NCBI GenBank assembly: GCA_017535785.1
Contig: JAFXTN010000008.1
Span: 248,001 to 312,000, forward strand
Source of the DNA: Butyrivibrio sp.
GTDB lineage: Bacteria > Bacillota > Clostridia > Lachnospirales > Lachnospiraceae
Direction of reading: 5' to 3'
Length of the DNA stretch: 64,000 nt
Shown: piece after piece, positions 10,033 through 50,509 of the stretch
Layout: every line of letters starts with the position of its first letter
How positions within the stretch are numbered: position 1 is the stretch's first letter
Notes under the pieces: generated by a model
The model's input: only the letters and a program-made list of their open reading frames with translations
The model's database searches: none
Told to the model about the DNA's origin: nothing
Position numbers and translations under genes: made by a program

Positions 10033-10042
10033 GGAGAAATAT

Positions 10043-18282: not shown

Positions 18283-18309
18283 TTTGAGACTTAAAGAATG
18301 GGAGATGGT

Positions 18310-19227
18310 ATGGATATTTGGGCGGAATTTGATGAAAAAACAAATTACTTGGAAAGAACCTGCAGGAACAAAGTGGTATATATTTGGGGCTATGGTTTGA
18401 GCGGATGGTTTGTTGAGCATATATTAAAAAGAAATGGAATCACAAATATTAAAGCAATAGATAAGAATCCAAACATAAAAGCCTTTCGACCGTATTATAT
18501 TAAGTTTTTAAATCCAAAAGAATCAGTTCTTCTTCTTACTTTTGAGCCGGGTGAAAGTGACGAAAAGTATTTAAGTGATCTGGGTTTCAAAAAAGGTTTG
18601 AATTATATAGTTATTAAAGAATTGTATGATATTGATCAGAAAGGTTTTATTTCATATGAGAGATATTTGGATTGCAGATATGGGTTGGACATAACAACAG
18701 TTGTGGAAGAAACAGACAAACCTAGTGAAGAGTCTTGTGGATATCATTGGGGGATGGATTTTGTCATAGTGGATATGCTGAGTAAAGTTAAATTCAACTC
18801 AGAAGATGCTGTATTTGATTATGGATGCGGAAAAGGCGGTGCGCTGCTACTATTTAATAAAATGGGCTGTAAAAAACTTGGTGGAGTAGAATATGACAAA
18901 AGAGTCTATAGCAGTTTGATTAGAAATATGAAAAAACTTGATATTGATATCTCTGGCTTCATTCAAGGTGATGCAACTTTGGTTAAGAATGAGATAGATG
19001 CATACAATTATTATTTTTTTTATGATCCATTTGAAGGACAATCGTTTACTACAGTAATTGATAATATTTGCGAGAGCTATGAAAGAAAAAAGCGAAAAAT
19101 ATGCATTGTATATGCATCACCTAGATGCCATGAATATTTGATTAAAAGCGGATTTAAATTGATTGAGCATATGGATGTACAAGAAATGACGTATCCTAAT
19201 ATAAATATGTATGTTATAAATCCATAA
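18310..19227 (+). CDS. Rossmann-like domain fused to a methyltransferase-like domain
   Basis: About 305 residues. The first part (about 15-110) is a nucleotide-binding-like fold with VYIWGYGLSGWFVEHIL, the extra domain shared with many neighbours. The second (about 125-305) is a class I methyltransferase fold with AVFDYGCGKGGALLLF and FYDPFEG in the catalytic loop position. ATG at 18310 has GGGAG five bases before it; ATG at 18298 is also possible and adds four residues. The product follows the first methyltransferase by 27 bases. The function is probably methylation of a sugar; the role of the first domain is unknown. Confidence 0.72.
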   Translation: MDIWAEFDEKTNYLERTCRNKVVYIWGYGLSGWFVEHILKRNGITNIKAIDKNPNIKAFRPYYIKFLNPKESVLLLTFEPGESDEKYLSDLGFKKGLNYIVIKELYDIDQKGFISYERYLDCRYGLDITTVVEETDKPSEESCGYHWGMDFVIVDMLSKVKFNSEDAVFDYGCGKGGALLLFNKMGCKKLGGVEYDKRVYSSLIRNMKKLDIDISGFIQGDATLVKNEIDAYNYYFFYDPFEGQSFTTVIDNICESYERKKRKICIVYASPRCHEYLIKSGFKLIEHMDVQEMTYPNINMYVINP

Positions 19228-19267
19228 TAGTAACCGACAATTGTACAGAAAAGTAGAAAAAGGGATT

Positions 19268-20356
19268 ATGATGAAAAATCAGGTTGTCATGAAGTTTATA
19301 TCGGCTATTATCGAACACGATCAAATGATTGTTTTGGCGTGTAATTTGGCAGGTATTTTTAGGGTGAATTTAAAAAATGGATACGTAGAGACTCTTGCAG
19401 CTTTACCTCAAGAGTATTTTTCATATAACTATATGAAAATGTGTAAAGTAGATAACAAATACTACATCTCGCCATGTCATTCAGATTCTATAGTTGAAAT
19501 AGATGCAAATGATTGGCACGACCAGTATTTATACAAAATTGATGATAAACAGACAGAAGTAAAATCAATTAGATGTGGTGATGTATATCCTGTAGGTAGT
19601 TCTGTGTACTTTTTGCCTTTTGGGGGTCATGCAATTATCGAATTGAATAGAGAGACGCGTGAATTACAATACTATAAACAGTGTTTTGAATATGTTTCAG
19701 AGATAATCTCTGTTAAGCCGACTCTTTTATTTGGAGGAAGTGTTGTCGAAGGCGATAAAATATGGTTTGTATGTCGGCAGACTAATGTTGTTATAGGTTT
19801 TGACACGAAAAATAAAGAAACTGAATGTTATATTGTTGGAGAGGACAAGATAGGATTTAAGTCTATATGTTATGCTGAAAATTATTTTTGGATTTATACG
19901 GTTAAAGGCGATTTAATACAGTGGAATAGATCTAACGGAGTAAAACAGATCCTACATGAACTGGGGGGAGATGAGCCTGAAGATGTAGATATTTCTTTCC
20001 ACAATAATAAAATAGTACTCGCAGGACAGAGTATGTATCATTGTATTGAGGTTGATGTAAGTAGCGGTGAATGCGAGAAAATATTATTTGATAGAAATAA
20101 TAATGAAAAAAAGACATATGGGTTTTTTACAAAAATAGAAGATGGATTGTATTTTCTTCCGGAAGACAACGATTATTTTTATGAAATAGATACCATTAAT
20201 CGTAGTGCTTATGGGAGAAAAATCGTGCTTGAAGGAGTAGAACTGGAAAAATATAGAAAATTGCGAATTGAAAATGACATAAGAATAAAAGGCTTTGTTA
20301 TGGAGCGGGAAAATGAAACTATAGATGATTTTATTAAAATCATAAGTAATCCATAA
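19268..20356 (+). CDS. beta-propeller-like protein of unknown function
   Basis: About 362 residues, built of short beta repeats such as KIWFVCRQTNVVIGFD, NYFWIYTVKGDLIQWN and DGLYFLPEDNDYFYEID, typical of a six- or seven-bladed propeller. There is no signal peptide, so it acts in the cytoplasm. ATG at 19268 is chosen with AAAAGGG upstream; a TTG at 19241 would add nine residues. It may bind a glycan intermediate or hold enzymes together. No enzyme motif was recognised. Confidence 0.65.
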   Translation: MMKNQVVMKFISAIIEHDQMIVLACNLAGIFRVNLKNGYVETLAALPQEYFSYNYMKMCKVDNKYYISPCHSDSIVEIDANDWHDQYLYKIDDKQTEVKSIRCGDVYPVGSSVYFLPFGGHAIIELNRETRELQYYKQCFEYVSEIISVKPTLLFGGSVVEGDKIWFVCRQTNVVIGFDTKNKETECYIVGEDKIGFKSICYAENYFWIYTVKGDLIQWNRSNGVKQILHELGGDEPEDVDISFHNNKIVLAGQSMYHCIEVDVSSGECEKILFDRNNNEKKTYGFFTKIEDGLYFLPEDNDYFYEIDTINRSAYGRKIVLEGVELEKYRKLRIENDIRIKGFVMERENETIDDFIKIISNP

Positions 20357-20375
20357 GAATAACCACGAGGTATAT

Positions 20376-22019
20376 ATGGTAGACCATGAGCTTAAGAACC
20401 GAATATTTAAACTGTTGAAAATTTACAGAGTAGAGGAACCTTTGAATGATTTCGAATCTGTGTATATCTGTGGTTATAAATGGACTAAAAGCATAATGTT
20501 CGATTATTTGTGCGAATGCGGATATAAGGATAAATTGTGTGGGTTTCTAAACATAGATGATTCTGATTTGCAAACGAGTAATGAGGTGAAAATCGCAGAT
20601 TTAGAAGGAAATGAAAAAATATTCGTTTACCTTATTACTTACAAATTAGATTACGAAGATATAAGGAATGAATTGAATAAGAATGGCATTCAACATATTC
20701 AATTGGTGAACTGTTTTGATAAAAGAGATGCTCACTTTTATTACAATCTTCCTGAAACAAGATTTGCTGAAGAATTTAAATATGTAATTGGACTACGTGA
20801 TGATAGTAACGTAAGAAAATGGTTTATTAATTCAAATGCTTATAATCAACAGTGCAAAAAAACAAGAGCAAAGAAGTATATTTTTTTTACGGCGGATATA
20901 AGTTGTATAGGAGGGCTACAACTATATACACTTGGAAAATATCATTATCTTGAAAGAGAAGGCTGGAAAGTATATGTGATTCATTGTGGGACGGAATTAT
21001 ATTCAAGCGTAATTCCGGACCTTAATCACTTTGTTGGATGTTCGTTGCCGGAAATTGGTAAGCCTGTTGAAAATTTCAGTATAAGTGAAATAGAGGAGAC
21101 CATAGAAATAGTAAAGATATTGATTGAATGGGATTCAAATGATGATCTTTGTGTGGTTGAATCGCATTCTGAATGCCTTGCAGTATGGGCTGAGCTGTTT
21201 GCGGAGTCTATAAACGGTAAACATTTCTGCTTTAATTGTAATGAGATTTTTAGAGGCGAAAATAAGTATTATGAGAGATATCTTGACTATTTTGTATACA
21301 AATATAACAGAAGAGAATTGGCAACAACATCGGTTAAGGCGATGAATATGCTATTTGACGGAAAGATAGAAATCAAACCTGAATGTTGCCCGTGTTTTGA
21401 TCCAATAGAGCAAATGCCGGTAATGGATGTTGAAGATTTCGATAGTTCTATTATTCCTAAAAAGGATTATAGGATCTGCTATATTGGAAGAACTCAAAAG
21501 GGATACTTTGATAATATTGTCAAAGGAATATTCGAATTTGCAGAATACTGTATGCAACGGATGGAAAGCGTTGCATTTGTGGTTGTGGGTCAATTAGATG
21601 AAAAAAAACAAATTGAGTTGTTAGAGAACAAAACATCTAATCTTGAATTTTGTTTTTTAGGCGATTTGGTTCCCATACCGAAGGACTTATATACCGAAGT
21701 TGACTTAGTCGTTGGAGGATCTGACTCGGCATATTATTCTGCATTGATGAATGTCCCTGTTGTTATAGCAGATGCGGCAAATTATAAGGCTAATGGTATA
21801 TACGGATATGACACAAAAGATCTTCTTTATTGTGAATCGGAAGATATGCAGATGACTTTTTTTAGTGCATTTACTAGAGCATTAATAAGCAAAGAGTATC
21901 TTGAAAAAACATATGAAGTTCCCCAAAGGGATATGGATAAGGAATATAGTAAGCAAATGGATTTGATTAGAAAATCTGATCAAAAAAAAGACTACTATAG
22001 TTTTAAGGGAATTAAATAG
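20376..22019 (+). CDS. Rossmann-like domain fused to a GT-B (family 4-like) glycosyltransferase
   Basis: 547 residues. Residues about 25-130 contain the shared accessory fold (VYICGYKWTKSIMFDYL ... YLITY). Residues about 165-540 look like a GT-B glycosyltransferase: IFFTADISCIGGLQLYTLG is the family-4 type Gly-rich N-terminal loop, and RICYIGRTQKGYFDNIVKGI begins the C-terminal nucleotide-sugar-binding half. DLVVGGSDSAYYSALMNVPVV matches the usual acidic sugar-nucleotide pocket position, though the E-x7-E motif is poor. It is cytoplasmic and lies 19 bases after the propeller gene. Confidence 0.72.
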   Translation: MVDHELKNRIFKLLKIYRVEEPLNDFESVYICGYKWTKSIMFDYLCECGYKDKLCGFLNIDDSDLQTSNEVKIADLEGNEKIFVYLITYKLDYEDIRNELNKNGIQHIQLVNCFDKRDAHFYYNLPETRFAEEFKYVIGLRDDSNVRKWFINSNAYNQQCKKTRAKKYIFFTADISCIGGLQLYTLGKYHYLEREGWKVYVIHCGTELYSSVIPDLNHFVGCSLPEIGKPVENFSISEIEETIEIVKILIEWDSNDDLCVVESHSECLAVWAELFAESINGKHFCFNCNEIFRGENKYYERYLDYFVYKYNRRELATTSVKAMNMLFDGKIEIKPECCPCFDPIEQMPVMDVEDFDSSIIPKKDYRICYIGRTQKGYFDNIVKGIFEFAEYCMQRMESVAFVVVGQLDEKKQIELLENKTSNLEFCFLGDLVPIPKDLYTEVDLVVGGSDSAYYSALMNVPVVIADAANYKANGIYGYDTKDLLYCESEDMQMTFFSAFTRALISKEYLEKTYEVPQRDMDKEYSKQMDLIRKSDQKKDYYSFKGIK

Positions 22020-22031
22020 GAAGATAGCAAT

Positions 22032-23159
22032 ATGAAAAAATTTATTTTTGGAGCAGGTCATGATGCAAGATATGTAGTAGCTAATGCCTTTTTGGCAAAG
22101 AACGAAGAATATGATGGTGTGATAGTTTCGTCTAAGGAAGATAATCCGGACAGGCTATACTTTTTGACTGTTTATAGTGTAGAGGAAGCAGTTAATAAAT
22201 TTGGGAGAAATATAGAGGTAACACTCGGAGTTTCTAAACAATATAAGGATGCTGTTAAAGAAATACTGTGTGATCATGGTATAACGAATGTGGTTGAACC
22301 GGATCGATTTTCGCTCAGGTTTAATGATTATCCCGATGTTAGCATGACTGATTATTTACAGGCTTGGTTTTTTGCGGTTACTGGAAAGATGTTGGATTGG
22401 GAAAACTTAAGGACGTATGACGAAAAAATCCAATGGTTGAAGATATTTGACTGTACTGATAAGAAGAGAGACTTAGCGGACAAATATAAAGTCAGAGAAT
22501 TTATAAAAGAAAAAATTGGAGATAAATATTTAATTCCAATTTACGGTACTTGGAAACATTTTAGGGATATAGAATTTGATACACTACCTCAATCATTTGT
22601 TTTGAAATGCAATCATGGATCAGGCTGGAATGAGATAGTATATGATAAAAAAAATATCGATATGGATGATCTGAATAGTAAGTTCGAGAGTTGGCTTAGG
22701 TGTGATTATGCCGATACTCCCGGATTGGAATTGCAGTATAAGGGGATAGATCCGTTAATAATTGCTGAGAAATTACTTGAAGATGATTCAGGGGATGTTC
22801 GAGATTATAAGTTTTTTGTATTTGATGGACAAGTAAAAATGATACAGGTAGATATTAATAGACTTAGTAATCATAAAAGGAATATATATACTCCCGAATG
22901 GGAGTATATACCCGTGTCAATTCACTATCCATCAGCGCCGGAAGTAGTTGTTGAACGTCCTAAATGTCTGAGCAAAATGATTGAAATTGCTGAGACTCTA
23001 GGGGAGGGATTTATTCATGTACGAGTCGATTTATACCTTGTGAATGGAAATATTTTTTTTGGCGAGATGACGTTTACACATGGTAATGGGATAGAAGTAT
23101 TTAATCCGGAAGAATTCGGATTGAAAATGGGAAACTGGATAAAAATTCCAAATCAATGA
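22032..23159 (+). CDS. Rossmann-like domain fused to TupA-like ATP-grasp enzyme
   Basis: 375 residues. KKFIFGAGHDARYVV at the N-terminus (1-95) is the shared GxGxx domain. From about residue 115 the protein matches TupA-like ATP-grasp enzymes: TYDEKIQWLKIFDCTDKK, ADKYKVREFIKEKIG, FVLKCNHGSGWNEIVYDK (ATP-binding), DYKFFVFDG and FGEMTFTHGNG with catalytic acidic residues. TupA is linked to teichuronopeptide synthesis, so this enzyme may attach an amino acid or other carboxylate to a glycan. ATP-grasp chemistry is well supported; the acceptor is not. Confidence 0.82.
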   Translation: MKKFIFGAGHDARYVVANAFLAKNEEYDGVIVSSKEDNPDRLYFLTVYSVEEAVNKFGRNIEVTLGVSKQYKDAVKEILCDHGITNVVEPDRFSLRFNDYPDVSMTDYLQAWFFAVTGKMLDWENLRTYDEKIQWLKIFDCTDKKRDLADKYKVREFIKEKIGDKYLIPIYGTWKHFRDIEFDTLPQSFVLKCNHGSGWNEIVYDKKNIDMDDLNSKFESWLRCDYADTPGLELQYKGIDPLIIAEKLLEDDSGDVRDYKFFVFDGQVKMIQVDINRLSNHKRNIYTPEWEYIPVSIHYPSAPEVVVERPKCLSKMIEIAETLGEGFIHVRVDLYLVNGNIFFGEMTFTHGNGIEVFNPEEFGLKMGNWIKIPNQ

Positions 23160-23173
23160 AAAGGAATAATATT

Positions 23174-24412
23174 ATGATTTCAGTGACTACTATTATGCCT
23201 GTTTATAATATGGCTGAATATATAGAAAAAGCAATTGCAGAATGGGGAAAACAATCATTAAAACAAAAAGAATTGATTTGTATTGATGATTGCAGTAATG
23301 ATAGTACGGCTAGTGTATTGAAAAGATGTGCTTCAAAATATGAAAACATAAGAATTATTACTCTAGAAAAGAATTCAGGCGCAGGACCAGCAAGAAATAG
23401 GGGAATAATCGAAGCTAAAGGAGAGTATATAAGTTTTCTGGATGCTGATGATAGATATATTGATAAAAATGCTTTAGAGAGAATGTATGAAGCTGCAAGA
23501 AGAGATAATTGTGATGTTTGTGGGGGAATGGTATCTGACTTGTTAGATGATACGATCCTACCATATGAGAGGTTTCGGAACATAGACTTTAACGGAAATG
23601 AGTATATTGATTTATCATATAGTTCCTTTCAAGACGACTATTATTATCAGGGATTTATATATAAGAATGAATATTTAAAAAGGAATGATTTCATATTTCC
23701 TGATTTAAGAAGAAATCAAGACCCGCCTTTTTTGTCAAAAGCTATGTTTTATGCAAATACGATTAGAGTCGTAAATACTGAGTATTATCTACATTTGATT
23801 GGACATAAAACAGTAAGCCACAATCCGAGAAGCATTTGCGATAGTTTCAAAGGATTTCTTATGAACATAGAATTTGCAGACCAAAATGGTCTGGATATAT
23901 TGCTTCAGAAGAGTGCATACAGAATTAACAGAACATTTTTATATTTGTGGAGAGGAATTCTGAATGATGAGTGTCATGAGTTTTGGGATATGGCATTCAA
24001 GGCTGAGAGTATTTTGAAAAAATACAATATAAATGTTGATATATTAGGTTATTATCCGTATCTGCATAATAGAAACGACTATTTTGATGAATACATGACA
24101 ATGGTTAAATTAGAAAATGCTTTTTTCCATGGTAAAAGGCTGATAATCTATGGCGCAGGGAATAATGGTATAAGGATTTATAGATATATTAAAGGTAAAA
24201 ATTTGTGTGAAGTTACAAAGTGGATAGATAAAAATAAATCGGGGGAATTTATAGAAGATATATTTATTTCAGATATCAGCTCATTGAATGACTGTGTTTT
24301 TGATTATGTGTTGATAAGTCCCGGTGATAGACATGTTTCTGAAGAAATCAAACAAGAACTCAGAAATACGGGTATAGATGAAAAGAGGATCGTTGAATGG
24401 ATAAATCTTTGA
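23174..24412 (+). CDS. GT2 glycosyltransferase with C-terminal Rossmann-like domain
   Basis: About 412 residues. The GT-A domain begins ISVTTIMPVYNMAEYI and has LICIDDCSNDST and FLDADD, D90 and D92, for metal and nucleotide-sugar binding. The C-terminal domain (about 320-412) is RLIIYGAGNNGIRIY ... FDYVLISPGD, the shared accessory fold. ATG at 23174 has AAAAGGA upstream; ATG 23156 overlaps the previous stop as ATGA and may give translational coupling. The gene overlaps the following radical SAM gene by 16 bases. Confidence 0.82.
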   Translation: MISVTTIMPVYNMAEYIEKAIAEWGKQSLKQKELICIDDCSNDSTASVLKRCASKYENIRIITLEKNSGAGPARNRGIIEAKGEYISFLDADDRYIDKNALERMYEAARRDNCDVCGGMVSDLLDDTILPYERFRNIDFNGNEYIDLSYSSFQDDYYYQGFIYKNEYLKRNDFIFPDLRRNQDPPFLSKAMFYANTIRVVNTEYYLHLIGHKTVSHNPRSICDSFKGFLMNIEFADQNGLDILLQKSAYRINRTFLYLWRGILNDECHEFWDMAFKAESILKKYNINVDILGYYPYLHNRNDYFDEYMTMVKLENAFFHGKRLIIYGAGNNGIRIYRYIKGKNLCEVTKWIDKNKSGEFIEDIFISDISSLNDCVFDYVLISPGDRHVSEEIKQELRNTGIDEKRIVEWINL

Positions 24413-25890
24413 AGGGGAAGACAAATAAATATATTATTGCCGGATCTGGGGATTATGGGCGGAGAGCTCTTACATATTATGGAAATGATAATGTGGAATT
24501 TTTTATGGATAATGATCCGAAGAAACAGGGGAATTATATTGATGGAATTAAGGTTTGTTCTTTTGAACTGTTAAGGGATCTTTCTGATCAATATAGAGTT
24601 ATAGTTGCTGTAAAAAACTATGAAGCTGTTGTTTCACAGTTAACTGGTTTTAATGTTAATGATTATATTGTTTTTTCACCTATAGTAGCAGAAATAATAG
24701 AAAACATACCACGTCCGGAGAAGAACTGTGGAATAATTTTATTTGGCTACGATATATACACCAGGCAGATCATAGATGGTGTTATAAAAGAGGGTTGGAA
24801 GGAAGATTCCATTATTATTGCTGAAAGAAAGCGCATTATTGAGAATAAACAACTTCAATCATGCGGAATAAAGGACATTGAACAGATTGATACAGAATCG
24901 AATGTTGTAATGGTTTCATCCGTAATCTATGCGTATGGGATTGAGCAATATAAAATACGCAATAAAATGAGAACAAAAAAATGGATCAATCCATTTTTGG
25001 AGGAATCTTACTATCCGAAGGATAAGGTGATTATAAACACATACACATCAGATGCAGTGGAGACAACTGAGGAGAAATGGATTAAAGATAGGAACAGAAC
25101 AGAGGCTCGAGAAAGCTTAGAGGATTACTATTTTGAGCTTAACGAAGAGTTACCTATTTTTTCGCATATAGAGATTGAGACGGTAAACAGATGTAATGGA
25201 AAATGTTCGTTTTGTCCTGTCAGTGTAGGGCATGATGTGAGAACATATGCTGTAATGGAAGACAAACTGTTCTATAAGATCATTGATGAACTGGAAGAAT
25301 TGGATTATAGGGGGAGAATAGCACTTTTTTCTAATAACGAACCTTTTATAGATAAAAGAATAATCATGTTTCATGAATATGCTAGAAGAAAATTAGCAAA
25401 TGCAAGATTTCATTTATATACCAATGGTTCTTTGCTGACTTTGGAAAAATTTATATCTATCATAGAATATTTGGACGAGCTGATTATTGATAACTACAAT
25501 CAGGAATTAGAGCTTAATGATAATAGCCGGATTATATATGAGTATATAAAGAAAAATCCTGAGCTCATATCTAAGGTTGATATCGTCATCCGAAAAGAAA
25601 ATGAGGTATTGAGTACACGTGGAGGAGATGCACCGAATCGAGAAGTAAAAATATCCTACGATGATGTGACCTGCACGCATCCGTTGCGACAAATGATAAT
25701 AAGACCAGATGGAAAAGTATCGCTATGTTGTAACGATCCGTACGGGAGAGCAACTTTGGGCGATGTAACAAATAATACGCTTAAAGAGATATGGTATGGA
25801 GAAGCGTTTTCGAAAATTCGAGAGCAATTAAAGGGTGGAAGAGGAAATATTAGTTATTGCAAATACTGTGATTTTTTTGGGTGTAAATAA
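24397..25890 (+). CDS. radical SAM/SPASM enzyme with two N-terminal Rossmann-like domains
   Basis: 497 residues. Two accessory folds come first: KYIIAGSGDYGRRAL (about 10-95) and GIILFGYDIYTRQII (about 110-195). The radical SAM domain starts near residue 255 with NRCNGKCSFC (C266, C270, C273 binding the 4Fe-4S cluster). The C-terminal part (about 425-497) has CTHPLRQMIIRPDG, LCCNDPYGRATLGDV and CKYCDFFGC, a SPASM-like set of Cys. Glycan-cluster radical SAM enzymes of this kind modify sugars or small acceptors. The reaction is unknown. The gene starts inside the end of the GT2 gene with AGAGGA upstream. Confidence 0.82.
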   Translation: MDKSLKGKTNKYIIAGSGDYGRRALTYYGNDNVEFFMDNDPKKQGNYIDGIKVCSFELLRDLSDQYRVIVAVKNYEAVVSQLTGFNVNDYIVFSPIVAEIIENIPRPEKNCGIILFGYDIYTRQIIDGVIKEGWKEDSIIIAERKRIIENKQLQSCGIKDIEQIDTESNVVMVSSVIYAYGIEQYKIRNKMRTKKWINPFLEESYYPKDKVIINTYTSDAVETTEEKWIKDRNRTEARESLEDYYFELNEELPIFSHIEIETVNRCNGKCSFCPVSVGHDVRTYAVMEDKLFYKIIDELEELDYRGRIALFSNNEPFIDKRIIMFHEYARRKLANARFHLYTNGSLLTLEKFISIIEYLDELIIDNYNQELELNDNSRIIYEYIKKNPELISKVDIVIRKENEVLSTRGGDAPNREVKISYDDVTCTHPLRQMIIRPDGKVSLCCNDPYGRATLGDVTNNTLKEIWYGEAFSKIREQLKGGRGNISYCKYCDFFGCK

Positions 25891-25893
25891 GAT

Positions 25894-26775
25894 ATGTATA
25901 AATGTTTATTATGGGGCACAGGGAAACAGTTCTCATGTAGCACGCAGGTAATTAAATATTATGAACAGCGTCAAGAAATTGAAATTGTAGGAATTACGTC
26001 AAACGAAAAAATCTATAGCCAAATATTGGGGTGGACATTTATCCCCAAACATGAAATTTCTAATTATTCTATAGATATTGTGATTGTAATGATTGAGGAT
26101 CCGGATATAAATGTTTTTGAAGAGATATATAGTAAGGGGTTTAAATACGAAGATGTTATAGATATTAAGGTGCTAAAGCTTCCGGCGTTTTCATTTGAAA
26201 ATTATCTTTGGATAAAAAAGGATACTCCAACTATTTTTTCGCCTATGTGTTGGGGAGGGGTTACTTATCATTCGTTGGGACTAAAGTTTAAATCGCCTTT
26301 TATAAATATGTTCCTTCTAGAGGATGATTACATGCAGTTTTTAGATGATCCCAAGTCATTTATTGAACATGAAATAAGTTATAAAAAAACTGGATGGAGT
26401 GAAATAATGAAGAAGGAATATCCTATAGCAGATTGCGATGGGATAGAACTGCATTTTAATCATTACAATTCTTTTGAAGAAGCAAAAAGCAGCTGGGATA
26501 GGAGAAAGAAACGAATTAATTGGGATAATATTCTTGCTATGATGTTTACTGATAATTTGGATGTCGCTGAAAGATTCTTGAAAATGAATTATACGAAAAA
26601 AATGCTTTTCATTTCATTTGAGATGAATGCTGAAGAAGCTATTTATTTAAATTTGGCTGATTACCGTGATGGGATTGACTTATGGACGGCTGTAAATGAT
26701 ACGGCTAAAGGGAAATACGTGAATTATGATATTTTCAAAATGATGAAGGATGGTGAGCTGTCTTTCTTAATCTGA
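25894..26775 (+). CDS. Rossmann-like domain fused to DUF1919 exopolysaccharide protein
   Basis: 293 residues. The N-terminal part (1-85) is the shared accessory fold, CLLWGTGKQFSCSTQVI. From about 105 it matches the DUF1919 family found in exopolysaccharide clusters: TIFSPMCWGGVTYHSLGL, SPFINMFLLEDDYMQFL and ELHFNHYNSFEEAKSSW with the pattern of conserved Cys, His and Asp. Some relatives are proposed to be glycosyltransferase-like or phosphotransferase-like, but no activity is settled. The start is three bases after the previous stop, so it is coupled. Confidence 0.75.
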   Translation: MYKCLLWGTGKQFSCSTQVIKYYEQRQEIEIVGITSNEKIYSQILGWTFIPKHEISNYSIDIVIVMIEDPDINVFEEIYSKGFKYEDVIDIKVLKLPAFSFENYLWIKKDTPTIFSPMCWGGVTYHSLGLKFKSPFINMFLLEDDYMQFLDDPKSFIEHEISYKKTGWSEIMKKEYPIADCDGIELHFNHYNSFEEAKSSWDRRKKRINWDNILAMMFTDNLDVAERFLKMNYTKKMLFISFEMNAEEAIYLNLADYRDGIDLWTAVNDTAKGKYVNYDIFKMMKDGELSFLI

Positions 26776-26796
26776 TGAAAAGACGAGGTGGTGGTA

Positions 26797-27999
26797 GTGC
26801 TTTCTGTAATTGTTCCTATATATAATGGTCAAAAATACATAAAAAAATGTATATATAGTATTTTGAATCAAGAGTATGCGGATATAGAAGTGATTTGTGT
26901 TGATGATGGATCAATTGATGATTCGTTGCGGATAATTACAGAATTAGCGCAAACGGATGGAAGAATAAGAATAATTCATAAAGACAAAAATGAAGGATTA
27001 GTTTCAGCTAGAAAAACGGGGATAAATAATGCAAGAGGAAAGTATGTCGCATATGTAGATTGTGATGACTGGATTGAAAAGAACATGTATCTGGATATGG
27101 TTTCATATGCGGAGAAATATAATGTTGATATCGTAACTAGTGGAACTATTTATGAGGGGAAAATTAATAAAACAGTTTATGATGGGTTTGATGAAGGATT
27201 ATATGATGATGATAAACTCGAGTTTATTAAGAGTCATATATTTTTTTCAGATAGAAGGTATGAAGAAGGTATTAGGTCAAATCTTGTGAATAAGATTTAC
27301 AAAAAAGATTTGATCATGGACATACAAAATAGCATATCTGACAGTGTATCATACGGAGAAGATAGACTTTGTACATTGAAGTGCATAGTGGGAGCTATTT
27401 CTATATATGTTTTGCATAGAGCATATTATCATTATGCTATATATGATAATTCCATGAGCAGCGGGGATAATTATTTTTATTTGGATCAGATAGGGTGTTT
27501 GTATAGAGAATTATTGAAAGCCATATCTGATACTCGTTATAGTAAACAACTAAAATTCCAATGTGGAATATATATAACTCAATTATTGCTTAAGGGAATA
27601 AATAATAATTTAGGAATTGAACCCGAAGATATGGTATGGATACATCCTTCGTGGGTGTCAGATATCCCTAGCAATAGTAGGATTATATTATATGGGTGTG
27701 GAAGAAGAGGAAAAACATACTACCGACAATTAAAAAACAGTGTGAAAAACATTGAGATTGTGGCCTGGGTTGATAAGAATTACAAAAATTTTATTGATCA
27801 TATTACAGAGATTAAAAATCCGGATGACATTGATGAATTGCAATTTGACTACATAATTGTTTCTGTAGAGAATGACAAAGCAGCAGAAGAGATAAATGAG
27901 TTATTGGCAAAAAAAGGGGTTGATAAGAGTAAAATTATCAGACCAATTCCTTTGGACTCGTTTTGGCAATTTGCTGAAAGCTCAGGATTATATGTATAG
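26797..27999 (+). CDS. GT2 glycosyltransferase with C-terminal Rossmann-like domain
   Basis: 400 residues. LSVIVPIYNGQKYI begins the GT-A domain, with VICVDDGSIDDS and YVDCDDW for the acidic metal site. After a helical middle part (KGINNNLG ... MVWIHPSW), the shared accessory domain is IILYGCGRRGKTYY (about 295-390). GTG at 26797 is chosen since GAGG lies eight bases before it; GTG 26788 is also in frame. It is a paralogue of the gene at 30740, with which it shares the KGIN-LG and WI-P-W segments. Confidence 0.8.
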   Translation: MLSVIVPIYNGQKYIKKCIYSILNQEYADIEVICVDDGSIDDSLRIITELAQTDGRIRIIHKDKNEGLVSARKTGINNARGKYVAYVDCDDWIEKNMYLDMVSYAEKYNVDIVTSGTIYEGKINKTVYDGFDEGLYDDDKLEFIKSHIFFSDRRYEEGIRSNLVNKIYKKDLIMDIQNSISDSVSYGEDRLCTLKCIVGAISIYVLHRAYYHYAIYDNSMSSGDNYFYLDQIGCLYRELLKAISDTRYSKQLKFQCGIYITQLLLKGINNNLGIEPEDMVWIHPSWVSDIPSNSRIILYGCGRRGKTYYRQLKNSVKNIEIVAWVDKNYKNFIDHITEIKNPDDIDELQFDYIIVSVENDKAAEEINELLAKKGVDKSKIIRPIPLDSFWQFAESSGLYV

Positions 28000-28017
28000 A
28001 AAAGGACGGTATTAGAA

Positions 28018-29607
28018 GTGCGTTTTTTGGATCAGGCTATTGAAGAGAATTTGTTTGAAGAGTCCGACGAAGTGTTGCGTGTTGGAAGATGGAATGATTT
28101 AGAGGCAGTCTCTACAACTGTGCCTGTATATGTTTTCGGGGCTGGTGAGGGAACAGAATATTTATTAAAAAAAAGTGGTACACATTTTAAAATTGCCGGG
28201 GTAGTTGATAATGATAAAACAAAGTGGAACAAAAAGCTGATAGATTATATTGATTCTGACATATATGGCGATTTAATAATTTCTCCACCGGAAACATTAA
28301 AAAAAACTGGAGGTAATTGCGCATTAGTAATTACAAGTATTCGGTATTGTGATGAGATATTTGAACAGCTCAAAGAGTATCACATTAAATATGTATATTC
28401 TTTGCTTCATATGGAGGCGAATAGAAGAATAGAAGAAGGCTGTGATCATGAAGAAGGAAGGACGGATGAAAAGGTTGAATTTGCAAGAGAATGTTCATTA
28501 AAGCCGATTAAGGCAAATAAGATTATTCTTGCAAGAGATGGTCTTGCGGGACATGGAAAACAGATTTTTAAGAGATTATCAGAGCTTGATTTGGATATAG
28601 ATCTTGTGTGGGTCAAAGAAAAAGAAAATTCAGAAGAAATTCCAGGTGTCAGAACAATAATTCAATCTGATTGGAAAACATATATTGAAGAACTCGAGAC
28701 AGCTCATATTTGGATATTCGGAGACATGATACCTGAGTATGCAATAAAACGTCCGGAACAGATATACATTCATGTGAAGCATTGGGCAAGCATTACTCTT
28801 AAGAGCTTTTATTTCCATTTGAAGCGGCATCTGGAAACAAAGAGTATCTATGATTACTATCGTCATAACTCAGATGCGATGGATTATTGTATGGTGGGTA
28901 GTGATTTTGATGAAGAGACTTGTCGTACAGGATTTGATTTTGATGGTGAGTTTGTGCGTGTGGGTTCACCAAGGAGTGATGTATTGTTTGAAGAAGGCGT
29001 GAAAGCGAAGGTATATGAACGCCTTGGAATAAATCAGGGTATACACACATTGCTATATGCTCCGACATTTAGATCAAAAAATCCCACTTCCTTGATAGGG
29101 CGTATGGGAGATGTTGATCTCGACTTTGAAATGCTTAAATCTACTCTCGAGAAAAGGTATGGTGGAGAATGGATGATTCTTCTTAGAATCCATCCGGATG
29201 TAGCTTTGGAAAGCAGAAAAGTGAAAAAACTGAAATGTGTTATGGATGTTTCAAGTTATCCGGATTCGGAGGAACTCGTTGCTGCTACAGATATTCTGAT
29301 TTCTGACTATTCAAGTATTATGTTTGAGCCAGCATTTGTGATGAAACCGGTTTTTTTATATGCTCCTGATGTGGATTCATATATAGGAAATGATCGAGAT
29401 TTGCTTCTAGACTATTATAGCCTGCCATTTTCTGTTTCGAAGAGTAATGAGGAACTGAATAATGTTATAGAGAAATTCGATGAAAAACAATATATAGAGA
29501 ATGTTGATGTTTTTCTAAAGAAATATGGAGTAAATGAAGACGGGAATGCATCTGAACGGGCATCAAGATTTATTCTGAGCCTTTTAGATGGAAGAAAAGG
29601 CAAATAG
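28018..29607 (+). CDS. Rossmann-like domain fused to CDP-glycerol glycerophosphotransferase-like enzyme
   Basis: 529 residues. VYVFGAGEGTEYLLKK (about residues 40-55) marks the shared N-terminal domain. Residues about 165-525 match the TagB/TagF glycerophosphotransferase family: LLYAPTFRSKN, LLRIHPDVAL, DILISDYSSIMFEPAFV and PVFLYAPD are the typical motifs. The family moves phospho-glycerol or phospho-ribitol from CDP-alditol to teichoic acid-like polymers. It starts with GTG and has AAGGACGG upstream. Together with the cytidylyltransferase fusion at 33130 it suggests a phosphoalditol-containing polymer. Confidence 0.8.
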   Translation: MRFLDQAIEENLFEESDEVLRVGRWNDLEAVSTTVPVYVFGAGEGTEYLLKKSGTHFKIAGVVDNDKTKWNKKLIDYIDSDIYGDLIISPPETLKKTGGNCALVITSIRYCDEIFEQLKEYHIKYVYSLLHMEANRRIEEGCDHEEGRTDEKVEFARECSLKPIKANKIILARDGLAGHGKQIFKRLSELDLDIDLVWVKEKENSEEIPGVRTIIQSDWKTYIEELETAHIWIFGDMIPEYAIKRPEQIYIHVKHWASITLKSFYFHLKRHLETKSIYDYYRHNSDAMDYCMVGSDFDEETCRTGFDFDGEFVRVGSPRSDVLFEEGVKAKVYERLGINQGIHTLLYAPTFRSKNPTSLIGRMGDVDLDFEMLKSTLEKRYGGEWMILLRIHPDVALESRKVKKLKCVMDVSSYPDSEELVAATDILISDYSSIMFEPAFVMKPVFLYAPDVDSYIGNDRDLLLDYYSLPFSVSKSNEELNNVIEKFDEKQYIENVDVFLKKYGVNEDGNASERASRFILSLLDGRKGK

Positions 29608-29615
29608 CGAGGGGA

Positions 29616-30743
29616 ATGATGTCCTATATAGTATTAAAATTTGATGACCTGACAGTAGAAAATCTTTCATATTTTGCATCACTTCATGAGTATTGCAAAT
29701 CACTAGATATTCCGGTTTGTTATGGGGTTATTGGAAAGAGCCTTGATGATCCGTCGAAAGAATATGTGGCAGCACTGAGAAAAATGATTGAAGAAGGCGT
29801 TGAACTATGGAATCATGGGTATCGCCATACAGAAACTGAATTCTCATCTAATCAAACTTTGCTGCAAGAGGATTCTATTAAGGCTACGCAGAACCTGTTG
29901 AAGGAATATTTTGGTAGGCCCGGAGCAACATTTGGATCACCGCATAATAACAGCACCGAAGAAACTGTAAGTGTGCTGAGCGAGTCGTTTCCTGAAATAA
30001 CGAATTACTTCTACATGGTAGATGGTAGTGGAGTATCATCTGCCAGGCAACTTTTGATGCGATGTAATTATGAGATCACAACCGGCGTAGTAGACCTTGA
30101 TTTTTTTAGGAAGGAATATGATAGGATAAAAGATTATCCCTACTTTGTTATGCAGGGGCACCCGAGTTTTTGGCGCGCTGAGGACTTCGACAGGTTTAAA
30201 GAGATGCTGTCATTCCTGATAGCTGATGGGAATGAATTTGTTACAACAGAAGAACTTGGGAATAAAGATATAGGTGGGTATACAAATAGTTCAGTGGATT
30301 CCTGGATGGGAAGTCTTGAGAACTTTTTTGTTACACACGATAAGGTATTCTTTTATGGTGCGGGTGAGATTGGAAGAGAACTATATAGGTTTATGAGTCT
30401 GAGAGGATTTAAGCCGTATGGCTTTGTAGTATCAGATGGAAAGAGGATTATTCCTGATACCTGCGGAGTATCGGTATTTGAATTTTCAGAGATCAAAAAT
30501 GAAGTGGGGGAAATTGGTATTGTGCCCACTATCCTTGGTAGGACACATAAACAGATTTTGGGCAGTAATGATCTGTCGCTTTTTGATATATGGATGCCTA
30601 GTAGTGTTAGTATGACTTTGGATGTGGATAATGCGTCAAAAATAAATTACTCCGATACCTTAGAATATGACAGATTTATAGATTATGTAAGATATGATCT
30701 TTCTCTATTAAGCTGGAAGAATAATTTGGAGGTGGGAAAGTGA
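29616..30743 (+). CDS. polysaccharide deacetylase-like protein with C-terminal Rossmann-like domain
   Basis: 375 residues. YIVLKFDDLTVENL near the start carries the Asp pair of NodB-type deacetylases, and WNHGYRHTE the His-x3-His metal ligands; FGSPHNNS and VMQGHPSFW complete the fold (about 1-230). DKVFFYGAGEIGRELYRF begins the shared accessory domain (about 245-360). ATG at 29619 is an equally good start given GAGGGG. It probably removes acetyl groups from a sugar inside the cell, as there is no signal peptide. The gene overlaps the next by four bases. Confidence 0.78.
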   Translation: MMSYIVLKFDDLTVENLSYFASLHEYCKSLDIPVCYGVIGKSLDDPSKEYVAALRKMIEEGVELWNHGYRHTETEFSSNQTLLQEDSIKATQNLLKEYFGRPGATFGSPHNNSTEETVSVLSESFPEITNYFYMVDGSGVSSARQLLMRCNYEITTGVVDLDFFRKEYDRIKDYPYFVMQGHPSFWRAEDFDRFKEMLSFLIADGNEFVTTEELGNKDIGGYTNSSVDSWMGSLENFFVTHDKVFFYGAGEIGRELYRFMSLRGFKPYGFVVSDGKRIIPDTCGVSVFEFSEIKNEVGEIGIVPTILGRTHKQILGSNDLSLFDIWMPSSVSMTLDVDNASKINYSDTLEYDRFIDYVRYDLSLLSWKNNLEVGK

Positions 30744-31909
30744 GTAATCCTTTTTTATCGATCATTATACCCGTATTTAATACTGAAAAATACCTTCGGC
30801 AGTGCCTTGAAAGCGTTGTTTCACAGACTTTTAAGGAAATGGAGATTATTTGCATTGATGATGGATCCACAGATGGATCTTCAAAAATATTGGAAGAATA
30901 CGCGGAACATGATTTCAGAATAAGATTGATTCACAAACAAAACGGAGGGCTGGTCAGCGTAAGGAAACTTGGTGTGTCTGAAGCGAAAGGACGGTATATA
31001 GGATTTGTAGACAGCGATGATTGGATTGATCCTGTGATGTATGAAAGGCTATGCAATTCTGCAATGGAGCAAGATGCTGATATGGTGTCATCCAGTTATT
31101 GGCAGGAAGGGGAGTATACTAATATATCCAAAGATGCCGTTGCCTCAGGTGTGTACGAGGGTAATAGGATGAGTGAGCTTAGGGATCATGCAATCTTGGA
31201 TATAGAAAAGCATGATAAAGGGCTGAGTGGTTCTCTTTGTACAAAACTGTTTAGGACATCAATACTGAGGGATGTTATGCCGCAGATTCCCTTAGATATC
31301 AAAGTCTCCGAGGATAAGGTGACATCGTTGACTTTTCTGCTGGAAAGTAGCAGGGTAGTTATACTCGATGAGGCATATTACCATTACAGAATTAATCATG
31401 ACTCGATGTTTCATGTAGATGATCCGGATTATTTGTTGAATTACAATACTGTTTATAAATACTTCAGAAGTCTGTACAGTCACAGGAATTTTACTGAAAA
31501 AATGCGGATACAGGCAGAGTTGTATATTGTACAATTTCTCATTAAAGGTATTAATACACAGTTGGGATTCTCTTTCAGAAATTTGATGTGGATCGATCCC
31601 AATTGGATAGACGAACCAGGATTAGGTAAAAGGGTGGCAATATACGGACAGGGTGAACTCGCAAGGACGTATGAGAGACATTTGAAAACAAACAGTGAAA
31701 AATGTTTTGCCGGCTATATTGATGATCATAGCAGTGCTATAGATGGTTATGATAGTGTTGTCATAGCTGTTAAGAATAAAGAAGTTGCAATGAAAGCAAA
31801 AGAAAAACTTACAGCAGAAGGCATTGATGATAAGAAGATATTCTGGTTTAAGCAGGATGAAATTTTCTGGAAGTATGTGGATGCAATGGGGTTAGGAAAG
31901 GAAAAATGA
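30740..31909 (+). CDS. GT2 glycosyltransferase with C-terminal Rossmann-like domain
   Basis: 389 residues, starting with GTG that overlaps the previous stop as GTGA. FLSIIIPVFNTEKYL, IICIDDGSTDGS and FVDSDDWIDP are GT-A hallmarks. The middle segment KGINTQLGFSF ... LMWIDPNWID is shared with the paralogue at 26797. The accessory domain begins VAIYGQGELARTYE (about residue 298), a variant of GxGxxG. GGAGG lies upstream. The product likely adds one sugar to the repeat unit; the donor is unknown. Confidence 0.8.
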   Translation: MSNPFLSIIIPVFNTEKYLRQCLESVVSQTFKEMEIICIDDGSTDGSSKILEEYAEHDFRIRLIHKQNGGLVSVRKLGVSEAKGRYIGFVDSDDWIDPVMYERLCNSAMEQDADMVSSSYWQEGEYTNISKDAVASGVYEGNRMSELRDHAILDIEKHDKGLSGSLCTKLFRTSILRDVMPQIPLDIKVSEDKVTSLTFLLESSRVVILDEAYYHYRINHDSMFHVDDPDYLLNYNTVYKYFRSLYSHRNFTEKMRIQAELYIVQFLIKGINTQLGFSFRNLMWIDPNWIDEPGLGKRVAIYGQGELARTYERHLKTNSEKCFAGYIDDHSSAIDGYDSVVIAVKNKEVAMKAKEKLTAEGIDDKKIFWFKQDEIFWKYVDAMGLGKEK

Positions 31910-33133
31910 ATGGGAGACTTCAAGTATGAAGAGGAGTACAGAGAAAAGTATAAGAATACGCCACTTGAGGACATCATGATTTTTCGTAGTGGACCTATGG
32001 CTTCCATAAATATAGAGGGGATGGATTTTGATGATAATGCGCGGGCTTTGTTTGAGTATGCATTACAGATAAAAATTAATGAGAAATACAAGCTTGTATG
32101 GATTGTTAAGAATCCTGCGAAGTTGAATGAGATGTTCAAGGAATATAAAAATGTTCTATTCCTTTCATGGGATGATGCTGATTCAGACGATATAAGTAAA
32201 AGGGATACTTTCTTTTATCATTTATGTCTTGCGAAATATTTCTTTTTAACAGATTCGTATGGTATTGCTCTTGGATGTAGAAAAGATCAGATAAGGGTGA
32301 TGCTTTGGCATGGATGCGGATTTAAGACAAGATTAGGGTTTTCGCCAAATGAAGATCATTACGAATATATGATTGTTACAGGTGATGAGTATGCAAGGAC
32401 ATATGCTAAGGTATTTGGTTTACGTGATGATCAGATGCTCGTTACCGGATACCCTAAGGTTGATTATATCTTTCATCCGGATGAGGATTGGATTAAGAAA
32501 TTGGATGTAAAAAGAGGTGCTAAGTATATTTTCTGGATGCCTACTTTTAGAAACACTAATAAAACGGGATTGGAAAGACATAATCACACAAAGCCCAAAG
32601 GTGAGACGGGGCTTCCTGTTGTTGAAACGCTGAATGAAATGAGTAAGTTGAATGGATTGCTAGCTTCTCGTGATACGGTCATGATTGTAAAACTCCATCC
32701 ATTTCAGGATAGATCTTTGATCTGTGATGTATCTGAATTTAGTAATATACAGCTCATAGAAAACGAGAGCTTGTTGAAAGCAGACATACAGATTAATCAG
32801 ATCCTCGGGTATGCCGATGCACTCATCAGTGACTATTCATCTGTAGCTGTTGATTATCTTGTAAAAGACAGACCGGTTGCATTTACGTTAGATGATATTG
32901 ATAGCTATGAGAAAGAAAGAGGCTTTTTTTGGACTGATCTAAAGTCGCATCTCCCGGGAAAAGAAATATACGACTATGATGAATTTTATAGTTTTGTTGA
33001 AGATGTTCTTAATGGTCTTGATCCGGGAGTGGATAAGAGGCATTTGATTTGTGAAGAAATGCAGAAATTCAGTGATGATCGCAACAGTGAGAGAGTATTC
33101 AAAGCATTGGGAATTGAGAGGGAGATTACATGA
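31910..33133 (+). CDS. CDP-glycerol glycerophosphotransferase-like protein
   Basis: 407 residues of the TagB/TagF-like family without the accessory Rossmann domain. FFLTDSYGIALGCRKDQ, VMLWHGCGFKTRLGF (catalytic His region), FWMPTFRNTNKTG, VKLHPFQD and ADALISDYSSVAVDYL are the usual motifs. The start is immediate after the preceding stop with AAAGGA upstream. The second member of this family in the cluster, it may prime the polymer while the gene at 28018 extends it, as TagB and TagF do; which does which is not clear. Confidence 0.85.
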   Translation: MGDFKYEEEYREKYKNTPLEDIMIFRSGPMASINIEGMDFDDNARALFEYALQIKINEKYKLVWIVKNPAKLNEMFKEYKNVLFLSWDDADSDDISKRDTFFYHLCLAKYFFLTDSYGIALGCRKDQIRVMLWHGCGFKTRLGFSPNEDHYEYMIVTGDEYARTYAKVFGLRDDQMLVTGYPKVDYIFHPDEDWIKKLDVKRGAKYIFWMPTFRNTNKTGLERHNHTKPKGETGLPVVETLNEMSKLNGLLASRDTVMIVKLHPFQDRSLICDVSEFSNIQLIENESLLKADIQINQILGYADALISDYSSVAVDYLVKDRPVAFTLDDIDSYEKERGFFWTDLKSHLPGKEIYDYDEFYSFVEDVLNGLDPGVDKRHLICEEMQKFSDDRNSERVFKALGIEREIT

Positions 33134-34467
33134 AGACGGTTATTACCTATGGAACTTTTGATCTTTTTCATGAAGGGCACTATAACATATTGAAAAGAGC
33201 TAAGGCTTTGGGAGATTATCTGATTGTGGGGGTGACGACTGAAGGATATGACAATTCCAGAGGTAAACTAAATATTGTCGAGCCTCTTATGGAAAGAATT
33301 GAGCACGTTAAAGAATGCGGTTTTGCTGATAAAGTAATAATCGAAGACCATATGGGACAGAAGATAGAGGATATTCAGAAATACCATGTGGACACGTTTG
33401 TGATTGGTTCGGATTGGCTTGGAAAATTTGATTATCTGAAGGAATATTGCGAAGTTATATATCTGGAAAGAACAAAGGGTGTCTCAAGTACATTGAAGAG
33501 AAAAGAGGAATTTCAGCTTATTCGCTTTGGTGTAGTGGGAAGCGGAAGGATAGCAACCAGATTTGTGCTGGAGGCAAGATACGTTAGTGGTGTACATGTG
33601 GAAGGGGTATATAATCCTCATATTGAAAGTGCAAAAAAGTTTGCGATAGATCATGAATTGGCTGTTTATGAGGATGACTATGACAGTTTTCTTGAAAAGA
33701 TAAATGCAGTATATATCGCATCGCCCCATGGTACGCACTATGAATATGCAAAGAGGGCATTGGAAAGAGGCAGGAATGTACTCGTAGAAAAACCGATGGT
33801 TTTGAAAAAGCGAGACGCCGAAGAATTGTTTGCGCTTGCAAAGAAAAATGGATGTATATTGATGGAGGCCATAAAGACAGCCTATGCTCCTGGGTTTGTG
33901 AGATTGATAGCATTAGCCAAAAGTGGTGTCATTGGTGAGATAAGAGATGTAGAAGCATGTTTCACAAAACTTACAGGGGATAATACAAGAGAACTGACAG
34001 ATACTGAATATGGCGGAAGTTTTACGGAACTTGCCAGTTACACGATACTCCCTATAATAAAGCTTCTTGGAACGGATTATAAGAATATACGGTTTAAGTG
34101 TAATAATACACAGAATAATTTAGATGGTTATACAAAGGCATATTTTGAATATGAAGATGCGCAGGCAACTTCAAAAACTGGACTTAAGGTGAAATCAGAG
34201 GGGCAACTTATCATATCCGGGACATCCGGATATATAAAGGTTACAGCACCCTGGTGGAAAACAACAGAGTTTGAGTTGTGCTATGAAGACACATCGCAAA
34301 ACGAAAAGATATATAATCATTTCAAAGGGGACGGACTCAGGTATGAAATCAGTGATTTTGTCTCTAAAGTAAATAGATATGGAAACAATGATTTTAAGCT
34401 CACAAGGGAAGATTCTATTGCTATAGCAGAAATTATGGAAAGATTTTTAAAAGAGCATAGAAGTTAA
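33130..34467 (+). CDS. glycerol-3-phosphate cytidylyltransferase-like / Gfo-Idh-MocA oxidoreductase fusion
   Basis: 445 residues with two enzymes in one chain. Residues 1-130 are a TagD-type cytidylyltransferase: GTFDLFHEGH (H14, H17) and RTKGVSST (about 114-121). Residues about 133-440 are a Gfo/Idh/MocA NAD(P)-dependent oxidoreductase: GVVGSGRIATRF, YIASPHGTHYEYA and VEKPM with the Lys of the active site near 221. A cytidylyltransferase joined to a reductase recalls the Bcs1 protein of Haemophilus (TarI plus TarJ), but both halves here come from different families. It probably makes a CDP-alditol for the phosphotransferases next door. The gene overlaps the previous one by four bases (ATGA). 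Confidence 0.85.
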   Translation: MKTVITYGTFDLFHEGHYNILKRAKALGDYLIVGVTTEGYDNSRGKLNIVEPLMERIEHVKECGFADKVIIEDHMGQKIEDIQKYHVDTFVIGSDWLGKFDYLKEYCEVIYLERTKGVSSTLKRKEEFQLIRFGVVGSGRIATRFVLEARYVSGVHVEGVYNPHIESAKKFAIDHELAVYEDDYDSFLEKINAVYIASPHGTHYEYAKRALERGRNVLVEKPMVLKKRDAEELFALAKKNGCILMEAIKTAYAPGFVRLIALAKSGVIGEIRDVEACFTKLTGDNTRELTDTEYGGSFTELASYTILPIIKLLGTDYKNIRFKCNNTQNNLDGYTKAYFEYEDAQATSKTGLKVKSEGQLIISGTSGYIKVTAPWWKTTEFELCYEDTSQNEKIYNHFKGDGLRYEISDFVSKVNRYGNNDFKLTREDSIAIAEIMERFLKEHRS

Positions 34468-50199: not shown

Positions 50200-50500
50200 G
50201 ACTGCTACTATTGAAGATTTGCGGATATAGGCAGTTGATTTCTGGGGCGAGAGACTGCTACTTTTGGAGATTTGTGGATATAGGCAGTTGATTTCTGAGG
50301 CGAGAGACTGCTACTTTTGGAGATTTGTGGATATAAGCAGTTGATTTCTGAAGTGAGAGACTGCTACTATTGAAGATTTGCGGATATAGGCAGATAATCA
50401 CAGTGAAAAACAACTGCTACTTTCGAAGAATTGCAAATATAGGCAGATAAACCCCGAAAAAAACATCTGCCGGAAATACGATTTGCAAAATCTAGCAGTA
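50200..50500 (+). repeat. 53-bp tandem repeat array, about 5-6 copies
   Basis: ACTGCTACT begins units at 50201, 50254, 50307, 50360 and 50413, exactly 53 bases apart. A sixth, decayed unit starts near 50466. Each unit contains ACTGCTA and later TAGGCAGT, so single units can fold as hairpins. The units drift gradually toward the 3' end. There are no distinct spacers and no reading frame, so it is neither CRISPR nor coding. Confidence 0.9.
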
Positions 50501-50509
50501 ATAATAGGT

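Follow-up and report, generated by a model that had tools for sequence, protein, structure and literature searches.

Do neighbouring genes for quite different glycan enzymes share one accessory domain and, if so, what does it do there? The question is raised by a 64,000-nucleotide stretch of a Butyrivibrio sp. genome (GenBank:JAFXTN010000008.1, positions 248,001 to 312,000), here called the window, in which open reading frames (ORFs) were called mechanically. Within a large surface-glycan region, 11 ORFs lie in a row on the + strand (18298-31909), and ten of them bear, or very probably bear, an extra Rossmann-like domain. Our analysis largely upholds the view that this is one widespread, poorly annotated Rossmann-like module, present in many copies on many kinds of enzyme. 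The ten ORFs, all found where a preliminary description had placed them and with the domain at the terminus it had named, are as follows (percentages are hhalign probabilities for the domain).

18298..19227, + strand: S-adenosylmethionine (SAM) methyltransferase-like, N-terminal Rossmann-like domain (about 18367-18612), loop GYGLSG; 97.2% with three homologs
20376..22019, + strand: probable GT-B enzyme, degenerate N-terminal domain (about 20457-20699), no GxG loop; 76.9%
22032..23159, + strand: TupA-like ATP-grasp (PF14305, E 3e-59), N-terminal domain (22041-22286), loop GAGHDA; 96.9%
23156..24412, + strand: GT2 (PF00535), C-terminal domain (24137-24379), loop GAGNNG; 98.9%
24397..25890, + strand: radical SAM/SPASM enzyme (PF04055, PF13186), N-terminal domain (24427-24654), loop GSGDYG; first copy 98.8%
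about 24727-24996, + strand: weak second copy in the radical SAM protein 24397; 27% (E 7e-4)
25894..26775, + strand: DUF1919 protein (PF22674, PF08942), N-terminal C2185-like domain (25900-26145), loop GTGKQF; 96.5%
26788..27999, + strand: GT2, C-terminal domain (27679-27924), loop GCGRRG; 99.2%
28018..29607, + strand: CDP-glycerol phosphotransferase-like (PF04464, E 6e-62), N-terminal domain (28126-28389), loop GAGEGT; 98.1%
29616..30743, + strand: polysaccharide deacetylase-like (PF10096, PF01522), C-terminal domain (30342-30557), loop GAGEIG; 97.4%
30740..31909, + strand: GT2 (PF00535), shortened C-terminal domain (31631-31828), loop GQGELA; 96.5%

Pfam identified the catalytic parts as TupA ATP-grasp, GT2 (three times), radical SAM/SPASM, DUF1919, CDP-glycerol phosphotransferase and polysaccharide deacetylase, with the methyltransferase matches of 18298 below the cut-off. 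Because three of the ten carriers are GT2, the row holds eight enzyme kinds rather than the ten different enzymes first claimed. For 20376, Pfam gave no enzyme match, nor did it for the homolog of this protein in genome G342, so that GT-B, the label used in the preliminary description, is kept as a probable name. Full-length relatives of 18298 were found in 3 of 244 genomes besides its own, and all other matches started at residue 121 or later.

To assess homology, a profile was built from relatives with all window sequences excluded. Nine of the 11 proposed domains were recognised by hhalign at 96.5-99.2%, among them that of 18298, which reached 87.2% when aligned alone, and that of 30740, which failed the 1e-3 threshold in the last hidden Markov model (HMM) round despite its hhalign value. 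Judging from the profile alignment (E 2e-5), 20376 probably carries the domain as well; its G342 homolog has a clear copy (98.5%), located at the C-terminus instead. The second copy in the radical SAM protein is a weak assignment that leans mainly on a modest fold model (predicted local distance difference test, pLDDT, 68.5), for which the first Foldseek match was Rex with NADH at an E of only 0.02; Rex came up often in both the Foldseek and the VIA results, and other NAD(P) enzymes scored Z values similar to that of Rex. Reversed-sequence decoys gave no profile match, and two of 150 random control segments of 150 amino acids (aa) exceeded 50% (95.6 and 88.2; possibly unrecognised members). 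Chance likeness of GxG loops was ruled out by the decoys, the controls and the genome scan described below. The proposal of a homologous domain on unlike enzymes is accordingly firm for nine copies, probable for 20376 and weak for the second copy of 24397. As to the GxGxxG-type loops proposed along with it, the firm copies do have a GxG loop, three of them without the full signature given below, and the loop is missing from 20376 and from the second radical SAM copy.

The order of strands and helices in the fold models, which have modest pLDDT, fits a Rossmann-like fold for the second radical SAM copy and for the domain of GT2 26788. In the AlphaFold2 model of the latter (mean pLDDT 79.4), strands and helices alternate at residues 298-375, with pLDDT blocks of 60-85 in the domain. 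A Foldseek search with this whole model was silent about the domain, since the 50 matches listed were glycosyltransferases throughout.

Annotation of the domain is sparse. When 100 isolated domains were compared with Pfam (E 0.01), 20 families were matched; the best-covering model, PF22674, matched only 17, PglD_N (PF17836) 15 and Methyltransf_14 six. Since no Pfam model exceeds 17 of 100, the domain will be overlooked in the annotation of many such enzymes. Against PF22674 (cut-off 27 bits), 25894 scored 32.2 bits and the carrier at L099:9998 (L numbers denote regions of other genomes) 45.9 bits, and 23156 scored 21.1 bits as a whole protein and 25.6 bits as an isolated domain. Against PglD_N (cut-off 23.4 bits), 26788 and 30740 scored 13.6 and 13.0 bits, respectively. 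NCBIfam gave weak NeuD and Rex matches for 24397 and otherwise nothing on the domain. The DUF1919 protein 25894 aligned with PDB 2g6t, which we take to be CAC2185 of Clostridium acetobutylicum, over residues 1-245 (E 2e-35).

The fusion pattern is general in this bacterial family and not peculiar to the window cluster. In the genome containing the window (2.9 Mb, 39 contigs, 91% complete), 12 profile matches were found at E<0.02, eight of them in the row or within about 10 kb and four elsewhere: C22:140747 (652-aa frame), C11:61248 (235 aa, the size of Rex), C6:93489 (362 aa) and C22:234755 (214 aa). Among same-family genomes, 173 of 200 had a match at E 1e-5, with one to three matches in 132, four in six and five or more in 35 (maximum 26), so that the pattern recurred when counted in relatives; in the phylum, at least 209 of 299 genomes had a match and at least 11 had five or more, many of the single matches listed being Rex-size frames of 205-245 aa. 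These genome counts are lower bounds, tallied by eye from at most 17 or 26 scored candidates per genome, and take in Rex-size ORFs and the window's own genome.

In 33 regions, most of them selected for holding the domain (L031-L046, L100-L109), with L110-L114 selected via homologs of three window enzymes and L099 via DUF1919, the domain was borne by 209 of 529 ORFs, at the N-terminus in 88, at the C-terminus in 96, inside in eight, alone in 15 and doubled in two. The longest runs of carriers comprised ten genes in G350, eight in Pseudobutyrivibrio sp. ACV-2 (Lachnospiraceae) and seven in both G008 and the window. Pfam searches (E 0.001) of 107 carriers found GT2 in 26, radical SAM in 11, FkbM methyltransferase in seven, DUF4422 and GT1 in five each, and phosphotransferase, LicD, Gly_transf_sug and cytidylyltransferase-like families in three each, besides others. 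A two-copy radical SAM protein was also present in ACV-2 (L099:5934). It was also noticed that several genomes encode similar proteins of 737-792 aa with the domain inside (L099:16478-18847, L032:10377-12587, L042:6617-8992), and the two of these that were scanned weakly resembled methyltransferases at the start and were cytidylyltransferase-like at the end.

Did the domain spread within the cluster, as had been suggested together with a common partner or scaffold? For this comparison 214 copies were aligned, 211 found by HMM and three from the window (18298, 20376 and 30740, in which some columns are gaps) added by hand; 199 remained without stand-alone copies, and the alignment had 78 columns at about 20% mean identity, too little to be likely to resolve a tree of the domains. 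Domains on different enzymes, stand-alone copies excluded, were 0.199 identical within a genome and 0.196 between genomes (620 and 15756 pairs), and the within-genome mean was reached by 261 of 2000 label shuffles. When stand-alone copies were also counted, the within-genome value of 0.2015 stood against a shuffled mean of 0.198 and was reached by 45 of 1000 shuffles, a marginal excess. Window domains were 0.167 identical to one another (26 pairs) and 0.184 to others. Likeness within genomes being no higher than between them, the data give no hint that the domain spread inside the cluster, and recent duplication of one domain along it was ruled out by the same values.

Domain identity instead climbed with enzyme identity, from 21-22% where enzymes were less than 35% identical (629 pairs) to a mean of 44.4% for the 19 pairs with enzymes at 50-70% and a mean of 79.5% above 70% (six pairs, all G001 versus G182, which are near-identical over part of the cluster and hence not independent). 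Exceptions were 10 of 44 pairs with enzymes at least 40% and domains at most 26% identical, e.g. window 22032 versus its G007 relative (43% and 11%). The domain thus travels with its enzyme, which does not agree with the idea of spread through one cluster towards a common partner.

It is also independent of position. Among 1046 homologous enzyme pairs, 29 had the domain at opposite ends, 77 had it at the C-terminus versus none and 45 at the N-terminus versus none; of the 29, 19 involve one GT2 whose start is cut by the region end (L034:11562) and four involve L039:8393. The enzyme groups are single-linkage BLAST groups, and their counts are rough because single linkage draws even 33130 into group 0 (86 ORFs). 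Three kinds of enzyme showed a change of ends: 1) 20376 has the domain in front and its G342 relative behind (33% over 406 aa), 2) a G005 GT2 has it in front and many other GT2 behind (best 36% over 243 aa), and 3) a G007 Gly_transf_sug glycosyltransferase has it behind and its relatives in front (36% over 228 aa). In addition, the window radical SAM protein holds a weak copy besides its firm one; its relatives at 49-57% identity have a single copy, and others none.

In two cases the domain is encoded by a separate gene just upstream of the enzyme gene: in G004, a 141-aa domain gene is followed after 8 nucleotides by a 230-aa DUF4422 gene (L040:7263-8383), and in G338, a 136-aa domain gene is followed after 7 nucleotides by a 225-aa TOD1/MUCI70-like gene (L114:9027-10116). 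Corresponding pairs are fused in G024 and G450 (enzymes 45 and 47%, domains 28 and 35% identical), and the fused cognate was the closest of 208 copies for the G338 split domain and the 7th for that of G004. Each split enzyme gene is preceded by a Shine-Dalgarno-like stretch, as seen by eye. We regard these as natural fused and split pairs; a frameshift or assembly fault is the less likely alternative. In one further case, the methyltransferases of G001 and G182 (L043:7955-8992, L101:3577-4602) are 93% identical in the catalytic part and 38% in the domain, and their DNA, in 60-base windows, is 87-100% identical over the catalytic part and 48-60% in the domain. As identity stays low further upstream, a larger exchange took place here, with its sharp breakpoint at the joint between domain and enzyme. 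Since related enzymes lack the domain, have it at the other end or have it as a separate gene, the possibility that its sole use is to let the enzyme that bears it fold, named at the outset as what would overturn the proposal, was rejected.

What the domain might bind can be approached through its solved relatives. Searching the PDB by profile returned Rex (5zz5, E 1e-10), 3nkl (E 3e-9), 2g6t (E 1e-6), WbaP chains (E 3e-6) and VioB (2e-5); Rex binds NADH, as given in PDB entry titles, and 3nkl is a sub-domain of a UDP-sugar enzyme. According to the WbaP report (PMC10942596), the WbaP domain is stabilised by UMP, UDP and UTP, full-length WbaP is inhibited by UMP with a half-maximal inhibitory concentration (IC50) of 4.1 uM, most of the dimer contact is made by that domain, and such domains also occur on unrelated dehydratases, a sharing that the authors call puzzling. 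For Pcryo_0637, a PglD relative, the source (PMC8040287) describes the N-domain as a binding platform for UDP, and has the PglD-type loop Ser and the Asp-Asp after strand 2 contacting ribose and uracil. Among our 214 copies, the first loop glycine was kept in 205, the second in 183, and the full GxGxx[GA] in 144 (lost in 70). This full loop was combined with an Asp closing strand 2 in 116 copies; of the nine firm copies in the window, six are among them. Loop and acidic residue are thus kept in about half of the copies. The two PglD-type contacts occurred together in 0 of 214 (Asp-Asp alone in seven, Ser alone in five), and PglD-type UDP binding was dropped as a general rule.

The explanation that we rank first, tentatively and with less than even confidence, is that of a nucleotide-binding regulatory or dimerising module acting enzyme by enzyme. 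The glycine-rich pocket would bind a ribonucleotide (either one resembling NAD(H) or some other nucleotide of the cell), and binding would alter the module's own dimer or domain contact, tuning the attached glycan enzyme; by analogy, UMP sensing has been reported for the middle domain of WbaP, and Rex is a sensor of NADH. A sensed nucleotide, one of the roles proposed at the outset, remains the leading possibility, given that the solved relatives by profile include binders of NADH, UMP/UDP and UDP-sugars. That related enzymes, of three kinds, bear the domain at different ends speaks against a fixed role within the active site and, together with splitting, suggests that the pocket does not belong to that site. 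Carriers such as the radical SAM enzyme and the deacetylase need no nucleotide sugar, which we count in favour of a control module. Because the domain travels with its enzyme, changes ends, splits and recurs, we regard it as more likely a reusable control module than the glue of one assembly line; this reading is preferred to the alternatives below on account of the loop signature, the absence of PglD contacts, end-switching and splitting.

Several points weigh against such a module. The profile also matched ordinary NAD(P) enzymes, e.g. dihydrodipicolinate reductase (7e-7), so that nearness to sensors is not specific, and the WbaP family PF13727 was matched by 0 of 100 isolated domains at E 0.01. 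The full signature of loop plus Asp is missing in 98 of 214 copies, part of it being absent from the firm window copies 22032, 25894 and 28018, and the two weak window copies have no GxG loop; ligand binding therefore need not be general. Moreover, folding may be the sole reason why the glycine loop is retained, and the specificity for each enzyme could equally be a purely structural contact.

Next in standing, at roughly one chance in four by our judgement, is a ligand-free docking or oligomerisation module, in which the domains would bind each other, or free copies located at the membrane, and bring the enzymes together as a complex. This role is kept open because free copies with a hydrophobic start exist, and they are its best support. 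Of the 15 stand-alone domain ORFs (L044:19389 is cut by the region end), seven begin with a hydrophobic segment, as listed below.

L038:10732-11235 and L039:152-652, 1825-2319 and 3217-3726: four hydrophobic-start free copies in G007
L113:6757-7239 and 10034-10498: two hydrophobic-start free copies in G450
L105:9344-9826: one hydrophobic-start free copy in G225

Their 19-residue Kyte-Doolittle maxima were 1.28-2.78, both G450 copies being the weakest; they share a linker with an invariant Trp after the segment, most have lost the second loop glycine, and they occur several per cluster, mostly beside genes without the domain. The subfamily, fused and shortened forms counted, was found in 15 of 150 family genomes. 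Docking is also consistent with the ten consecutive carrier genes of G350, and with the GT-A enzymes nearest to the model of GT2 26788 (TarS, TarP and RmlT among them), which carry extra oligomerisation parts. WbaP dimerises via its relative of the domain (PMC10942596). The marginal excess of within-genome likeness seen with stand-alone copies points the same way, but it disappeared when these were excluded; in addition, no conserved surface patch stood out in column conservation, and the subfamily profile found no free hydrophobic-start copy in the window's own genome.

Rather unlikely, in our view, is a substrate handle that holds the nucleotide sugar for the catalytic domain in the manner of the PglD and VioB N-domains. 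The PglD_N and Methyltransf_14 matches, the profile relationship to VioB and the UDP platform of Pcryo_0637 (PMC8040287) are in line with it, but the PglD-type contact pair was found in no copy. Changes of end and separate encoding fit poorly with a common active site. Besides, GT2 enzymes bind their own donor.

Still less probable is a common plug that would combine docking and sensing, with membrane-anchored free copies as hubs on which the enzyme copies dock and a cellular nucleotide gating the docking; if so, any enzyme acquired with the plug would be recruited to the membrane at once and share the metabolic control of the others. Least probable is an old, passive add-on with neither ligand nor partner, which would help folding or solubility or would be a tolerated junction at which genes are exchanged. 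The low identity among copies, the loop losses, the related enzymes that manage without the domain and the one exchange at the joint would suit it, but not the retention of the first two loop glycines nor the two cases in which a separately encoded domain still adjoins its enzyme.

As a correction to the preliminary description, 19241 lies inside the row of carriers without the domain. Two genes without it are:

19241..20356, + strand: gene within the row, 371 aa, no Pfam match reaching the cut-off and no domain match
31910..33133, + strand: second phosphotransferase, a relative of 28018 (PF04464), no significant domain match

Profile searches found no domain in 19241, 31910, 33130 or the other remaining window ORFs. 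Upstream of the row are mannose-1-phosphate guanylyltransferase-like and phosphomannose isomerase-like genes, and downstream are a cytidylyltransferase joined to a GFO/IDH/MocA oxidoreductase (33130-34467), CapD-type and GDP-mannose-dehydratase-type enzymes, LicD, MBOAT and an IspD-like gene. An HMM search of window ORFs found no copy in the downstream glycan enzymes, GT2 and LicD among them. Proteins of the DUF6077 and DUF6056 families were also noticed in the downstream glycan region (43793-44977 and 50483-52033, respectively), and elsewhere in the window a single protein combines Rieske, VanA_C, flavin reductase and rubredoxin-like parts (11165-12829).

No description of such fusions was found in the open-access literature, most subscription journals being outside its coverage. 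A domain common to many enzyme kinds side by side comes with natural pairs that are fused or split, with or without it, and N- or C-terminal, which make its role testable. If it were a nucleotide sensor, one signal could tune whole capsule-type pathways; if a docking module, it would provide parts for building enzyme complexes.

Compared with known systems, the C2185-like N-terminal domain (PF22674; 2g6t) is by profile the same domain as that of the DUF1919 protein 25894, whereas its model covers a minority of the copies on other enzymes and 2g6t itself has no GxGxxG loop. The C-methyltransferase C-terminal domain (PF08484) is likewise an add-on of sugar enzymes and is matched by the six isolated domains mentioned, but has a fixed place within one enzyme family. 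The N-terminal domain of PglD, VioB and NeuD (PF17836) is of similar size and sits on a glycan enzyme, with a UDP-contact pair that is absent here. The WbaP-type domain (PF13727) is a nucleotide-sensing add-on of a glycan enzyme (PMC10942596), but it lies between a membrane bundle and the catalytic domain and has a dimerising beta-hairpin, whereas the window copies lie at either end of their enzymes. The NAD(H)-binding domain of Rex, the best profile match, has the GxGxxG and the Asp after strand 2, a combination kept in about half of the copies; it differs in that the domain described here has no DNA-binding part, is attached to glycan enzymes and occurs in many copies per genome.

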